NCBI GenBank assembly: GCA_002256345.1
Contig: NKIY01000012.1
Span: 62,001-126,000 of the forward strand
Length of the DNA stretch: 64,000 nucleotides
Origin: Bradyrhizobiaceae bacterium PARB1
GTDB taxonomy: Bacteria > Pseudomonadota > Alphaproteobacteria > Rhizobiales > Xanthobacteraceae
Direction: 5' to 3'
Positions 48,858 to 57,272 of the stretch are shown here, piece by piece. Both the position numbers and the translations under genes were made by a program. The first letter of the stretch is position 1. Each line of letters opens with the position of its first letter. Below the pieces are notes generated by a model. It saw nothing but the letters and a program-made list of their open reading frames with translations, was not told the origin of the DNA and ran no database searches.

Positions 48858-50474
48858 ATGTCCGACACCGCTGCCCTGTCCAATTCCGCCGCGTCCCCGC
48901 TTGCCCTCGAGGTGGCCCGCCGCCGCACCTTCGCGATCATCTCGCATCCTGACGCCGGCAAGACCACGCTGACGGAAAAGCTGCTGCTGTTCGGCGGCGC
49001 CATCAATCTCGCCGGCCAGGTCAAGGCCAAGGGCGAACGCCGCAACACGCGCTCCGACTGGATGAAGATCGAGCGCGACCGCGGCATCTCCGTCGTCACC
49101 TCGGTGATGACCTTCGAATTCCAGGGACACGTGTTCAACCTGCTCGACACGCCCGGCCACGAAGACTTCTCGGAAGACACCTATCGCACGCTCACCGCTG
49201 TGGACTCCGCCATCATGGTGATCGACGCCGCCAAGGGCATCGAGGCGCGCACGCTGAAACTGATCGAGGTCTGCCGCCTCCGCGACATTCCGATCATCAC
49301 CTTCGTCAACAAGATGGACCGCGAGAGCCGCGACATCTTTGATCTCCTCGACGAGATCGAGAAGACGCTGGCGCTCGACACCGTGCCGATCAACTGGCCG
49401 GTCGGTCGCGGCCGCGATTTCGTCGGCACCTATGACATCGAGACCGGCGGCATCCGCCTGCTCGAAGGCGGCGGCGCCAAGACCGGCGCAGCCGAGAAGA
49501 TCGAAATCTCCGAACTGGCCAGCCGCAACGCCAATCTCGACGCCGACGAAATCGCCGGCGAACTCGAACTCGTCAAGGAAGCCGGCAAGCCGTTCGACCT
49601 GCAGGCGTTTCGTGAAGGCCATATGACCCCGGTCTATTTCGGCTCGGCGCTGCGCAACTTTGGCGTCGGCGATCTGCTCGAAGGCCTCGGCCGTTTCGCG
49701 CCGTCGCCGCGCGCGCAGGAGGCGGATGTCCGCAAGGTGGAAGCCGAGGAGCCGCGTATGTCGGCCTTCGTGTTCAAGATCCAGGCGAACATGGACCCCA
49801 ACCATCGCGACCGCATCGCCTTTGCGCGCCTCTGCTCGGGCAAGCTGACCCGCGGCATGAAGGCCAAGCTCGTGCGCACCGGCAAGAACATGTCGCTGTC
49901 GAGCCCGCAGTTTTTCTTCGCGCAGGACCGCGCGATTGCGGACGAAGCCTATGCCGGCGACGTGGTCGGCATCCCCAATCACGGCACGCTGCGCATCGGC
50001 GACACGCTGACGGATGGCGAGGACATCACCTTCATCGGCGTGCCGTCCTTCGCGCCGGAAATCGTCCGCCGTGTGCGTCTCGGCGATGCGATGAAGGCGA
50101 AGAAGCTGAAGGAAGCCCTGCAGCAGATGTCGGAAGAGGGCGTCGTGCAGGTATTCCGCCCACGCGATGGCGCGCCGGCACTGGTTGGCGTCGTCGGCCC
50201 GCTGCAGCTCGACGTGCTGAAGGCGCGCCTCGATGCGGAATATCAGCTGCCGGTGAGCTTCGAAGTCTCGGAATTCTCGCTGGCCCGCTGGATCTCGTCG
50301 GACAATGCCAAGGCGCTCGACACCTTTATGTCGAACAACAATTCCGGCGTCGCCGATGACGTCGACGGCGATCCCGTGTTCCTGGCGAAGAACGACTTCT
50401 ATCTGAACTACACAAAGGAACGCGCCGAAGGGATCGTGTTCTCGAACGTGAAGGACGTGAAGAAGAAGGGGTAG
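48858..50474 (+). CDS. prfC: Peptide chain release factor 3
   Basis: The GTPase RF3, 538 residues, which removes RF1/RF2 from the ribosome after termination. GTPase motifs are SHPDAGKTTLTEKL, the switch II region LLDTPGHEDFSEDTYR, and FVNKMD. The C-terminal half has RF3-type domains II and III (AFVFKIQANMDPNHRDRIAF, EGVVQVFRPRDGAPALVGVV). The ATG at 48858 gives the family N-terminus; upstream in-frame codons overlap the riboswitch. The last 145 bases reappear, diverged, at 52031-52170 beyond the SIR2 gene. Confidence 0.95.
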   Translation: MSDTAALSNSAASPLALEVARRRTFAIISHPDAGKTTLTEKLLLFGGAINLAGQVKAKGERRNTRSDWMKIERDRGISVVTSVMTFEFQGHVFNLLDTPGHEDFSEDTYRTLTAVDSAIMVIDAAKGIEARTLKLIEVCRLRDIPIITFVNKMDRESRDIFDLLDEIEKTLALDTVPINWPVGRGRDFVGTYDIETGGIRLLEGGGAKTGAAEKIEISELASRNANLDADEIAGELELVKEAGKPFDLQAFREGHMTPVYFGSALRNFGVGDLLEGLGRFAPSPRAQEADVRKVEAEEPRMSAFVFKIQANMDPNHRDRIAFARLCSGKLTRGMKAKLVRTGKNMSLSSPQFFFAQDRAIADEAYAGDVVGIPNHGTLRIGDTLTDGEDITFIGVPSFAPEIVRRVRLGDAMKAKKLKEALQQMSEEGVVQVFRPRDGAPALVGVVGPLQLDVLKARLDAEYQLPVSFEVSEFSLARWISSDNAKALDTFMSNNNSGVADDVDGDPVFLAKNDFYLNYTKERAEGIVFSNVKDVKKKG

Positions 50475-50513
50475 GGAGCGTCGCTCGTTCGGTTACTCCC
50501 GACCTCTCCTCAC

Positions 50514-50545
50514 ATCATGGCCGGGCTTCACCCGGTCATCCACCG
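50514..50545. repeat. Partial copy of the palindromic intergenic repeat
   Basis: The segment ATCATGGCCGGGCTTCACCC followed by GGTCATCCACC is one arm of the family seen at 2448, 5281 and 48214. It lies between prfC and the SIR2-like gene, which are convergent. Confidence 0.55.
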
Positions 50546-50588
50546 TTGCTGCAAGCGCGGACCTCGAAGTGCACCTCCGTTCGGTGCG

Positions 50589-51893
50589 TCACCGCCGCCT
50601 GAACCACATCGGCAGTTCCGGCTGGGTCGCGAGGTCCAGTTCCAGTTTCAGCTTTTCATCGATGACCTCGACACCGATGGTGAACGCGCCGTAGGCCTCG
50701 ATCACGCAATCCGCGACACCTTTCTTGGCCCGATGGGTCACGACCTGGCGCGGGAAGGTCGGATGCAAGTGGAATGATACCGGGCCGGCGAGAGGTCTGT
50801 TCGCTGCGTCGGCCGAGGCATCCACGCGCAGCGTGATATCGAGCGTCTCGTCGTCATTGATCTCGAAGCTCGCGACGCTGAGGCGTCTTCCGTTGCGTTC
50901 GCTCGTTTCTCCGAACCGACCCTTGTGCGGATCGTCCGGATCGAACTCCGGCAGCGCCTTGCTCGGCTTCATTGCGCTCGGTTCTCGCGGCTGCTCGTTG
51001 CCCGCGAGCGCGTCCAGCAGGTGCACGAGATTACAGTGTTCGTCTCCGCTCGGATGGGACGACGCGTGGCTGTAGAAGATCGGACTGACGCCGAATTTCC
51101 CGACCATGCGCGCACGGATCGCATCGCGCTCGGTCTCGTTCCGATAGCCCATAAGGGCGAAATGGCATGGCGGCGTGGTGCGTAGCCGGGCCGTGACCTC
51201 GCGCATGATATTGCCGAGGTCAGGATCGTTCATGGAGAAACCCACGAACACCACCGGATGCGTCAGAAAGATCGCCATCAGCTTGCGGCGGGCATCGTCA
51301 CTCGCGACGTAGCGCTCCACATAGGAGCTTTCCGTCAGGATGATGTTTTCCGGATCGTCATCGTGCCGGCCATGGAGATAGACGACGTAAGTGTCGGGGC
51401 GCCGGTTGCCGAGATTGATCAGAAAATCCGACACCATGGCGGGGTTGTGCCACGCGACAGATTTCGCGCTTCGTTCCGCAGCTTTCAGCGCCATCTCGAT
51501 GCATGGATCGTAGTTGGTGGTGATGTAGTGAGAGAAATTCATCCGTGCGAGCGAAAGATGCGGCTCCCGCACATCGCTTTTTTCCTTGAATTCCGTGCGG
51601 ATCAGCGTGCGAAAATCACGCGGCGCCATCCCGTTGACGAAGACTTCCGCCGTCCACGGGGCGTCGTTGAGATCGGCGAGAACCGTTCTCCACTGCAGGG
51701 CACGCGCTTTGGGGCTTGCGGTTTCCTGCAGGCGAACGAGCAATTGATGCCAGTTGGGATAGCCGGAATTGAGGCTGGCGCCGGCCCCGATCAGCGCAAT
51801 CGGCGGCCTGTTGCTCCGGATCAGCGCGGCGAGCTGGTCGAACGCAGCGCATCGCTCGAATGGTGGAAACAGTGGAGATTCGAGCGCCGTCAT
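50589..51893 (-). CDS. SIR2-like protein fused to a pYEATS-like C-terminal domain
   Basis: A 434-residue soluble protein. The N-terminal SIR2_2-type domain shows IALIGAGASLNSGYPNW (residues 32-48), FSHYITTNYDPCIE (near 120), YLHGRHDDDPENIILTESSY (near 173) and VVFVGFSMNDPDLGNIM. The asparagine of TTNYD and the histidine of LHG occupy the catalytic positions used by NAD-degrading antiphage SIR2 domains. After a charged linker, residues 345-434 resemble the prokaryotic YEATS-like domain (RLSVASFEINDDETL, VSFHLHPTFPR, EAYGAFTIGVEVIDEKLKL, ELPMWFRRR). This suggests an NADase effector joined to a small sensor domain. The gene is convergent with prfC. Confidence 0.8.
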   Translation of the reverse strand: MTALESPLFPPFERCAAFDQLAALIRSNRPPIALIGAGASLNSGYPNWHQLLVRLQETASPKARALQWRTVLADLNDAPWTAEVFVNGMAPRDFRTLIRTEFKEKSDVREPHLSLARMNFSHYITTNYDPCIEMALKAAERSAKSVAWHNPAMVSDFLINLGNRRPDTYVVYLHGRHDDDPENIILTESSYVERYVASDDARRKLMAIFLTHPVVFVGFSMNDPDLGNIMREVTARLRTTPPCHFALMGYRNETERDAIRARMVGKFGVSPIFYSHASSHPSGDEHCNLVHLLDALAGNEQPREPSAMKPSKALPEFDPDDPHKGRFGETSERNGRRLSVASFEINDDETLDITLRVDASADAANRPLAGPVSFHLHPTFPRQVVTHRAKKGVADCVIEAYGAFTIGVEVIDEKLKLELDLATQPELPMWFRRR

Positions 51894-52030
51894 CGATCGC
51901 CTCGGAAATGTAGTCTCTGAAATGCAATCTAGGATTGCTTCGTTCGCGGGCGAAGTCCAGCGCTATTCGGCCGCATTTTGTTGGTTTTCGTGCTGGCCTC
52001 CATTGGCTGACAGGAGAGAAACTCGACACC

Positions 52031-52192
52031 ATGTCCGCCAACAATTCCGGCGTCGCCGATGACGATCCGGCGTTCCTGGCAAAGAACGATTTCTATCTGA
52101 ACTACACCAAGGAACGCGCCGAAGGGATGGTGTTCTGGAGTGTGAAGGATATGAAGAAGAAGGGAGCTCGCATCCCCAAGGCAGGTTCATAA
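52031..52192 (+). pseudogene. Diverged duplicate of the prfC 3' end
   Basis: This 53-codon frame repeats the end of prfC (SANNSGVADDDPAFLAKNDF, then YLNYTKERAEG-VFW-VKD-KKKG). Against the original it has a 9-base in-frame deletion, several silent and about six replacement changes, and has lost the stop, so it reads on to a short new tail. The homology also takes in the preceding bases CTCGACACC. It has an ATG and a weak ribosome binding site, but no other RF3 domain. It bounds the SIR2-like gene opposite the true prfC end. It may be an attachment-site remnant or a tail brought in by recombination. Confidence 0.82.
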
Positions 52193-52245: not shown

Positions 52246-52779
52246 ATGAGCAGTGAAGCCAAGTGGGTTGGGTCGGGCGGAGGCCCTCTGATCTGTGTCG
52301 AGGAACGTCTCGCGCATCACTGGTTGGGCGTTGACAACGCCATTGCGGGTGATGATGACGGGAGTGACTACGACAGGGCTTGTGACATCGGGGACTTCCT
52401 CGGCAAGGTTCCTTTACCCGGCGCTGATGCCCTGATCCTAGGGGATGAGCCTCTACAAACCTGTGTCGATCGGACACATCCTGAGCATCCGTCTGTCCTG
52501 CGTGTTTACTACGCGGACCCCGATATTGATGTGATCAGGCAACTCCACGCGAGGGGCGATCTCGATTTCGCGAATCCGGAAGAGATGATCGAAATCGATG
52601 TCGGTTCGACGCCTCTCGTCATCTTTGACGCCGCTTTTCCTGGCGAGGACCGCAGTGTCCAGCGTCTTTCATTCGATCTGCGCCCCGGCCACTATAAAGT
52701 CCTGACGAAGAGGTTCGAGCCCGATGAGAGAATATCGGTTCTTGTGCATCGGTTCGTGCGGCAAGAACAGCTAATTTAA
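52246..52779 (+). CDS. Immunity protein, Imm21-like
   Basis: A soluble acidic protein of 177 residues. The segments WVGSGGGPLICVEERLAHHW, DYDRACDIGDFLGKVPLPG and ALILGDEPLQTCV match the Imm21 immunity-protein family, which protects against polymorphic toxins. No cognate toxin gene is next to it, so it could be an orphan immunity gene, or the family label may be imprecise. It follows the prfC-tail duplicate by 53 bases, within which GGTTCATAATAG and GGTTCATGATAG form a short direct repeat. Confidence 0.72.
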   Translation: MSSEAKWVGSGGGPLICVEERLAHHWLGVDNAIAGDDDGSDYDRACDIGDFLGKVPLPGADALILGDEPLQTCVDRTHPEHPSVLRVYYADPDIDVIRQLHARGDLDFANPEEMIEIDVGSTPLVIFDAAFPGEDRSVQRLSFDLRPGHYKVLTKRFEPDERISVLVHRFVRQEQLI

Positions 52780-53249
52780 GCCTGCCGCTCCTCCACCACC
52801 CTCTTGATATTCCCCAGCCCCAATTCCGCCTCCGCATCGATCCGTGCCACGATCTCCGGGCTCGCTTCCTTCGGCCGCGCGGGATTGCGGACTGTGCGGA
52901 TGAACTTCGTGCCGCCATCCACCTCCGTGCAGTCATACTGCACCACGATCGGGCCGATCGCGCTCATATGGGTGAGGCCGATCCATAGCCGCGGGCGGTC
53001 GCAGGCGATCACCAGCCAGTCGAGTTCGACCGGGCCGGAACGCGTCGACCAGTGTTCGTGAAAGGTGTCGCCAAAAGCCATCGGGCGGTCGTCGCAATCG
53101 ATCTCGTGGGACGAAGGCAGCCATTCCGGCCAGGATTTCGGATTGGTCACATAGTCGAAAACCGCCTCGGGTCTTGCCGCGATCACGATGGAATGGCTGC
53201 GCTCGAATGGATGTGCGTGGCCGGTGGGCTTGAGGTCCATGGTGGTCAT
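52776..53249 (-). CDS. SRPBCC-family (polyketide-cyclase/START-like) protein
   Basis: A 157-residue protein with the SRPBCC ligand-binding fold pattern: RSHSIVIAARPEAVFDYVTN, PKSWPEWLPSSHEIDCDDRP, then strands ELDWLVIACDRPRLWIGL and VVQYDCTEVDGGTKFIRTV, and a long C-terminal helix. It has no signal peptide. The ligand is unknown. Its stop codon overlaps that of the convergent Imm21-like gene by 4 bases. The ATG at 53249 follows AGGGA. Confidence 0.88.
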   Translation of the reverse strand: MTTMDLKPTGHAHPFERSHSIVIAARPEAVFDYVTNPKSWPEWLPSSHEIDCDDRPMAFGDTFHEHWSTRSGPVELDWLVIACDRPRLWIGLTHMSAIGPIVVQYDCTEVDGGTKFIRTVRNPARPKEASPEIVARIDAEAELGLGNIKRVVEERQA

Positions 53250-53402
53250 GTCGGCGTTTCCCTGAAGGCTTGTTGTTGTGCGCAGAGTGCAAGACGCCGC
53301 TGTCCGGGACAAGCCCCGGGATGAAGATGCATTATTGCGGGTGACGGAGAATTGACGAGGCGCCGGTGACCTTGAAGCGCCGATCTGCGTTTAGAATAGA
53401 TA

Positions 53403-56023: not shown

Positions 56024-56180
56024 GGTTGGGCTAGGCCGCATCTGGGCCGTATACTTATAAACGCAACGGCCGCATGTGACTGGGGCGACTAAGTCCGGGT
56101 TGCTCCCATAGCGATGTCACGATGGTCCACAACCGGGCGCAGAGTTTACGGCCGGTCTGCTTCTCGCTTAGTATCCTTAA

Positions 56181-56840
56181 ATGTCAAAACGCGCAGACCT
56201 ACTTGCCAGGATTGCCCGCACGGTGGCCGAACTTGCCCCGGACAGGATCGTGCGGGTTGCAATCGATGGCGTCGACGGGGCGGGAAAAACGACGTTTGCT
56301 AACGAGCTCGCGGGTGTGATGGTCGATTTTGGGCGACCCGTCATCAGAGCCTCCGTTGATGGCTTCCACAATCGAAGAGCGATCCGATATGCCAAGGGCC
56401 GGCAGTCGCCTATCGGTTTTTTCGAAGACTCCTACAATTACGCTTTGCTGAAGCAATATCTCTTGGAACCCCTGAGCCCCGGCGGCAATCGCCGTTATTG
56501 CATCGCGTCTTTCGACCACGTTACCGATAAACCCGTGGATTTGGTCGAGCGAGAAGCATCCTCGAATTCTATCCTCTTGCTGGACGGAATATTTCTGCAT
56601 CGTCCCGAGCTACGCCCTTACTGGGAGGCATCGATCTTCCTTCGTGTCGACTTTCCGGTATCGGTGGCACGCAATGCTGTTAGGGATGGTATCTCCCCGG
56701 ATCCGGCAGACGGCGCTAACCGTAGATACGTCGAGGGCCAGCGCATCTATCTGAGCAAATGTGCGCCCGAAGACTACGCGACAATTATTATTGATAACAA
56801 CGATCTTGCGGAGCCTGCACTCGTGAAAAAGTGCTGGTAG
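56181..56840 (+). CDS. Uridine-kinase-like P-loop nucleoside kinase
   Basis: A 219-residue P-loop kinase-like protein. The ATP-binding loop is VAIDGVDGAGKTTFANEL near residue 30. A substrate-region helix follows SVDGFHNRRAIRYAKG, and LLLDGIFLHRPELRPYW resembles the lid strand of uridine/cytidine kinases. The phosphate acceptor is uncertain; nucleosides, phosphoribulokinase-type sugars or coenzyme precursors are possible. The gene and its 3' flank are AT-richer than neighbours and use codons such as ATT and AAT more often, which suggests acquisition from elsewhere. Confidence 0.8.
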   Translation: MSKRADLLARIARTVAELAPDRIVRVAIDGVDGAGKTTFANELAGVMVDFGRPVIRASVDGFHNRRAIRYAKGRQSPIGFFEDSYNYALLKQYLLEPLSPGGNRRYCIASFDHVTDKPVDLVEREASSNSILLLDGIFLHRPELRPYWEASIFLRVDFPVSVARNAVRDGISPDPADGANRRYVEGQRIYLSKCAPEDYATIIIDNNDLAEPALVKKCW

Positions 56841-57272
56841 GCGGAAGGGATGGACGAATTTGTCGTACACCTGCGCCGATCACCCGTTTCAACTAGGCTC
56901 AGCAGTGGGAAAACAACCCTGCAGAGATTGGCCGCGCCATGGCTATCGAACTTTCTTCGCTCGGGATCAATTTGAGTTCCGCGCCGATCTTAGGCATCGA
57001 CGGTAACCGCAACAATCCTCTAATCGGTCGCCCACGCACCTGACCTAGTTGCCAAACGTGCGTATTCATTCATGAAGGAACTTGAATCTGTTGGCGTACG
57101 CGCCTGCGGCAAGCACACATTCTCGGATAAGAAGATAAGGTTCGAGAGCGCATTCTCATGGCAGGCCCCGTGCCATGTCCCCCATGCGATCGGCTTCGCT
57201 GCGCTACGCCGCTAAACTATCCCCGTAAAGAGCGGGAAGAGGTTAGGCCGGAGCCGCGCGCCTTGCGTGCGA
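56841..57272. other. Intergenic AT-richer region, no gene recognised
   Basis: About 430 bases beyond the kinase-like gene, lower in GC than the surroundings. A 34-codon plus-strand frame (56939-57043) lacks a clear ribosome binding site and family. The end contains the common intergenic words CGCTGCGCTACGCCGC and GCGGGAAGAGGTTAGG. Nothing else could be supported. Confidence 0.5.

Follow-up and report, generated by a model that had tools for sequence, protein, structure and literature searches.

A second, decayed prfC tail behind a SIR2-pYEATS gene in Bradyrhizobiaceae bacterium PARB1 and comparable scars in other genomes of the family

Downstream of prfC, the gene for peptide chain release factor 3 (RF3), Bradyrhizobiaceae bacterium PARB1 carries a second, decayed copy of the prfC 3' end, and between the two tails lies a gene for a protein with SIR2_2 and pYEATS domains. 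We examined this locus in a stretch of 64,000 nucleotides (nt) of contig NKIY01000012.1, referred to here as the window, and in related genomes, among which the window genome is denoted G000. Duplicated prfC tails with cargo between them are present in four genomes of the family; the cargo is unrelated in each case, the second tails start at different points of the gene, close relatives of one of these genomes (G050) have empty sites, and no integrase was recognized in any of the inserts. On this basis we interpret the locus as the scar left when foreign DNA was captured without an integrase, the prfC 3' end serving as anchor, a process known as homology-facilitated illegitimate recombination. 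We give this interpretation slightly better than even odds (about 0.55).

The prfC gene of the window (48858..50474, forward strand) is intact and encodes 538 amino acids (aa) with the Pfam domains GTP_EFTU, EF-G_D2 and RF3_C. Its 3' end forms the first copy of the direct repeats, on the forward strand from about position 50310, and is 91.3% identical to that of the congener G002. The second tail (52003..52164, forward strand, with its left edge at about 52003-52009) spans the last 145-165 nt or so of prfC and is located past the SIR2_2 and pYEATS gene; it contains an ATG at 52031, from which 53 codons remain open to 52192, the prfC stop being gone. Two direct repeats relate the copies to each other, 50328-50361 to 52031-52064 (91% identity) and 50353-50470 to 52047-52164 (86%). 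The spacing between the repeats changes from 1703 to 1694, which indicates an in-frame deletion of 9 nt in the second copy. When the second tail was used as a query against its own genome only two places were found, with E-values of 4.6e-32 and 4.6e-19, which rules out a chance repeat. In an alignment read by hand from the repeated ATG onwards, about seven codons of the second tail differ from prfC silently and about six by replacement (N>A, V>A, I>M, S>W, N>S and V>M), and one further site varies with the placement of the gap. These counts are close to those of a preliminary description of the window, which had reported that the prfC tail recurs from 52031 with a 9-base deletion, a lost stop and about six silent and six replacement changes. 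The homology that it had noticed ahead of the repeated ATG is real as well and continues to about 52003-52009.

We compared the window genome with 17 congeners and ran a prfC-tail profile on two overlapping samples, one of 391 family genomes taken from a larger group (343 matched) and one of 397 order genomes (299 matched). Within the genus the second tail is present in one of 18 genomes, G000 itself, which rules out a fixed feature of the genus. In the family sample nine of the 391 genomes gave two tail matches, and four of them hold true second tails: G000 in genus g1, G050 and G308 in genus g34, and G100 in genus g24. All four second tails follow prfC at a distance of 0.2-5.1 kb and share its strand, so that prfC tails stand at both ends of each insert. 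Counted from the prfC stop, the inserts measure 1,528 nt in G000, 1,134 nt in G050, 155 nt in G100 and 5,098 nt in G308, and their contents are unrelated. The G050 insert holds one frame-broken membrane gene and the G100 insert is mostly dispersed repeat. The G308 insert encodes a PEP-mutase family protein, two ATP-binding cassette (ABC) permeases, an ABC ATPase, a substrate-binding protein and a GntR regulator (the second permease and the ATPase were assigned by inspection). The second tails start about 165 nt before the gene end in G000, 57 nt before it in G050, 69 nt in G100 and 92 nt in G308, at four different points across genera, and no shared sequence is visible by eye to the left of these starts. 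Outside G000 they comprise 18-30 codons and have other neighbors. We recognized no integrase in the four inserts, whose open reading frames (ORFs) were read and whose main ORFs were searched with Pfam.

The other double matches were rejected. In G116, G242, G337 and G386 the ORFs that hold the second match (282-554 aa) are on a different contig or 1 Mb or more distant, and in G127 prfC is split across two contig ends. Ten of the 397 order genomes gave two matches, and in the nine besides G000 the second matches are weak (E 0.007-0.05) and lie within ORFs of 684-968 aa. We also compared prfC tails with their own downstream DNA at 19 loci (16 of the genus and three of other genera, G010 being left out) over 0.4-5.9 kb, and at 14 loci over 1.4-1.5 kb with the tail end set approximately. 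Beyond the known copies in G308 and G100 these self-comparisons gave short matches only, the best being 26 nt inside an ORF of G015. A plasmid collection searched with prfC-tail DNA yielded one weak match, to a 4.6-Mb Shinella record. As far as titles and the beginnings of abstracts tell, no prfC-tail scars are described in the papers listed for prfC in connection with genomic islands, integrases and attachment sites or with defence, hotspots and core genes.

The question of which tail is the newcomer can be addressed through close relatives. In G266, G274 and G270 a single alignment runs from 57 nt before the prfC stop into the downstream gene and matches G050 from its second tail on, while the prfC genes of these genomes match that of G050 up to 10 nt before the stop. 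Such continuous alignments identify empty sites, and the second tail of G050 occupies the place of the native gene end. When the five congeners with the most similar prfC body are compared, every one of them is also nearer to this second tail than to the fused tail (94.7% versus 87.7% for G262). Within the duplicated span the fused tail deviates from the consensus of the congeners at 6 of 46 sites, whereas upstream the figure is 4 of 194 (p 0.004 by Fisher's test, one of four such comparisons); the fused tail thus looks like the incoming one. For side-by-side tail differences we used only the evenly aligned rows of G050 and G100. In our own reading of the alignment these differences are silent at five of five sites in G100 and at five of six in G050, a pattern as between two working prfC genes. 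When the G100 sites are set against six congeners, three favor the second tail, one favors the fused tail and one ties. The incoming tail being the one fused to prfC is supported in G050 and weakly supported in G100, and for the window we infer the same.

At seven sites of the window locus the base found in most congeners is present in the second tail and not in prfC, and the bases at the left edge of this tail match prfC of G002 more than the window's own prfC. Among the congeners compared, G002 is the one to which this tail aligns best. The site pattern and the G002-like left edge together indicate that the second tail is more than a simple recent duplicate of today's prfC end; an old event followed by decay of the unused copy fits. 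Identity in a sliding window along prfC of the window dips at -180 to -121, where relatives vary too; the misaligned G308 part of this comparison was left out.

There are reports of homology-facilitated illegitimate recombination from three competent species and from conjugation in E. coli (PMC3240628). It has also been proposed to leave orphaned 3' regions in type VI secretion system (T6SS) effector-immunity loci and in Rhs loci (PMC5361080). These orphan loci resemble those behind prfC in that there is a conserved upstream anchor, the other end is joined without homology and the resident 3' sequence is pushed downstream. They differ in that the anchor is an effector or toxin locus with variable ends, whereas here it is a housekeeping translation factor with an unchanged end and the cargo is arbitrary (PMC5361080). 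For prfC we infer a donor, a route of transfer, one-sided homology and an illegitimate joint that would act together in the following way. A DNA fragment of a related bacterium would carry its own prfC end plus the DNA that follows, in this case a spacer of about 114 nt and the convergent SIR2-pYEATS gene. The fragment would pair with the resident prfC by homology on one side, and its far end would be joined without much homology into the resident chromosome, still within the resident prfC tail. In this way prfC would stay whole, now ending with the incoming tail, while the displaced resident tail would be left behind the cargo, free of selection, and would decay. This one-sided course explains all four cases most simply. 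A far joint beyond the stop would leave no tail copy, which would account for other variable slots without one. The alternative raised in the preliminary description, recombination with a foreign prfC-linked cargo, corresponds to this course and fits better than a mobile element.

Several observations weigh against a capture of this kind. No donor with prfC beside the cargo was found, and the place relative to prfC of the two other SIR2 matches in the family was not examined. When the tail and insert start of G308 and G050 were searched against 43 genus genomes (best eight candidates per genome), 39 matched and none joined tail and cargo save these two genomes themselves. In the species tested, homology-facilitated illegitimate recombination is said to be less frequent than ordinary homologous recombination by orders of magnitude (PMC5361080). 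The G100 insert is 86% like a repeat about 560 bp behind its second tail, and a local event is possible there. The tail copy of the window is also much like the integrase-made icd/icdC duplication of e14, which is given as 165 bp with 12 nt changes and two replacements (PMC11148124). With regard to direction, the six differing sites of G050 split 3:3 when all 24 congeners are used, and in G000 (p 0.59), G100 (p 0.48) and G308 (p 0.78) the fused tail shows no significant excess of private states. The second tail of G308 is the less congener-like of its two (12 sites versus 5), and in the window 13 sites speak for prfC's own tail, seven for the second tail and two tie, a distribution that fits drift after an old duplication too.

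The main rival to integrase-free capture, which we regard as possible but clearly less probable, is that small islands, their integrase since lost or acting in trans, integrate site-specifically at the prfC 3' end as e14 does in icd, the replacement tail displacing the original. It would agree with the empty sites and tail replacement seen for G050 and with a gene end that is duplicated while the upstream copy is intact. SXT uses the 5' end of prfC. The SXT element, related integrative and conjugative elements (SXT/R391) and the cdt1 phage insert next to prfC, and thus share the landing gene with the loci described here, but they are integrase-bearing elements (PMC8138268). The anatomy of the loci is the same as that of icd/icdC in E. 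coli K-12, where a copy of the gene end stands on the far side of the insert and the gene is whole through the incoming tail; e14, however, is a prophage that has an integrase gene (intE) and crosses over at a single codon (PMC11148124). Behind prfC, by contrast, no integrase was recognized, the four tail starts leave no fixed crossover, and the insert of G100 is 155 nt long and mostly dispersed repeat. Further, the prfC tail has no relative in the phages and viral contigs searched. The lack of a recognized integrase and of a common tail start, and the repeat-rich G100 insert, also bear on the insertion idea of the preliminary description, which survives in one of its parts: a scar of insertion or recombination at the prfC end is supported by the presence of the second tail in a single genome of the genus, by near-empty slots and different genes in congeners and by the other cargo in three further genomes, whereas a mobile element with its own site is not supported. 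We conclude that the scar is real and recurrent, and that a mobile element is probably not its source.

A local duplication of the prfC tail within the genome, with the SIR2 gene arriving between the two tails afterwards in a separate event, appears improbable. The site pattern of the window fits two copies drifting on one lineage, and the G100 insert resembles a nearby repeat. Against these stands the finding that, in the window as in G050, the 3 kb that follow the second tail contain no repeat of insert DNA, which argues against tandem duplication. The fused tail of G050 is, moreover, the more distant one from the nearest congeners, the tail differences of G100 are silent only, and the same two-step history would be needed four times. 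We consider it very unlikely that the second tail is a working small gene for a 53-aa C-terminal peptide of RF3, which could for example serve as a decoy or partner for the SIR2 protein. The tail does have an ATG, its 53 codons are open and an AGGAG motif lies about 14 nt upstream. However, about half of its codon changes are replacements, the stop and three codons that aligned congeners keep are gone, and the shorter second tails of the other three genomes have different starts and neighbors.

The region downstream of prfC in the genus is a variable slot, which at times holds defence-like genes and, outside G000, no tail copy. On its right the slot is bordered by the next gene common to relatives (52776..53312, reverse strand), which is SRPBCC/polyketide-cyclase-like by inspection. 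DNA similarity to this gene is present in 11 of the 17 congener loci; the gene was not found in G006, G008 and G010, and in G005, G011 and G013 the locus stops short of it, within 0.4-1.3 kb of prfC. In two congeners the slot is nearly empty, with aligned blocks 166 bp (G004) and 296 bp (G003) apart; empty sites were among the things that the preliminary description had suggested looking for. A GGDEF-type protein (by inspection) occupies the slot in G002, G007, G014 and G017, and a HigA-like antitoxin (HTH_3; PADLOC PD-Lambda-2_B) in G001. In G005 (L038 2173-2691) the C-terminal part of a match to a dCTP-deaminase defence model (E 1.5e-62) lies directly behind prfC and is cut by the contig end. 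G009 has a PDC-S31 protein, with DUF2971 just under the Pfam cut-off, and G015 a HATPase protein that PADLOC does not match, while in G016 the stretch is longer and includes an IS630-like transposase (by inspection). The preliminary description had also named different defence genes between repeated prfC tails in other strains as support; other cargo between such tails was encountered in three other genomes of the family, whereas the congener slots with different genes lack a tail copy. Neither a tail duplication fixed throughout the family nor one without cargo, which it had named as evidence against insertion, was found, though the two tails of G100 are just 155 bp apart. G007 (L040 3762-3878) and G015 (L048 3734-4108) have additional fragments, or a further copy, of the SRPBCC-like border gene; possibly these are the same type of scar on the right-hand side, or merely paralogues.

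The insert of the window (50475..52002, right border approximate at 52003-52009) has a GC content of 60.8%, compared with 63.3% for the final 1000 nt of prfC, and does not align to any of the 17 congener loci compared except for short pieces of dispersed repeat. A short dispersed repeat lies where the insert begins, just after the prfC stop (50499..50560, forward strand), and was detected by a DNA search of the genome itself. It has at least 21 further matches there; the search gave 23 matches, comprising the query, the prfC tail and these 21, with the best 40 of 125 candidates scored. The SIR2-pYEATS gene (50589..51893, reverse strand) encodes 434 aa, and the SIR2_2 (E 3.5e-25) and pYEATS (E 1e-11) domains both score above the Pfam gathering threshold in the one protein; a homologue in Bosea carries the same pair. 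The window protein contains the stretches GAGAS, TTNY, LHG and GFSMNDPD, which in the Bosea homologue read GAGAS, TTNF, LHG and GFSMNDPD. We take GAGAS, TTNY and LHG to be the nicotinamide adenine dinucleotide (NAD)-binding and catalytic motifs of SIR2. A structure predicted from the single sequence had a mean pLDDT (predicted local distance difference test) of 41.6 and was unusable.

The protein is rare in the collections searched. At an E-value of 1e-20 the protein matched in three of the 391 family genomes, including G000 itself and one C-terminal-only match, and a search of genome contigs returned two loci, in Bosea caraganae and Xanthobacter sp. NM-59; a search of viral contigs returned none. 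Within the Bosea locus (L065 142-8904) a protein with trypsin and endonuclease domains and a CHAT-domain protein are followed by the SIR2-pYEATS gene and then by an FRG-domain protein, an arrangement that looks like a larger defence or conflict operon. The top PADLOC match of the window protein is ThsA of the Thoeris system, over the SIR2 region (residues 34-256). In contrast to ThsA, its C-terminus is pYEATS and not of the STALD/SLOG type, and no ThsB-like TIR-domain gene was recognized beside the SIR2 gene, the neighbors of which are prfC and an Imm21 gene. Judging from its domains, the protein probably consumes NAD (SIR2) and acts as an effector against phages or under stress; a role in defence is proposed because of these domains only.

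Directly behind the second tail is a gene for a 177-aa Imm21 immunity protein (52246..52779, forward strand; PF15589, E 4.1e-28), beside which we recognized no toxin gene. The Imm21 gene was not seen in the aligned congeners, and therefore the prfC slot may have been used more than once. Further along the window, 56025-57266 is another stretch missing from G002, with a weakly kinase-like gene (PRK, E 1.8e-4, just under the Pfam cut-off).

Many accessory and defence genes occupy slots without a visible integrase, and the route by which they arrived is usually unreadable. A displaced gene tail is a footprint in such cases, since it marks the joint and, where close relatives are available, the direction and relative age of the capture. 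We suggest tentatively that the prfC 3' end could be a recurrent site of integrase-free capture in this family, where the strongly conserved tail would serve as a universal anchor that adds DNA of other species of the family, defence genes included, behind an intact gene and leaves a datable displaced tail. A bolder proposal would be an unknown recombinase that acts in trans and recognizes the prfC tail. If conserved gene ends do anchor incoming DNA, a survey of genomes for core genes with displaced 3' ends would give a direct measure of such transfer.

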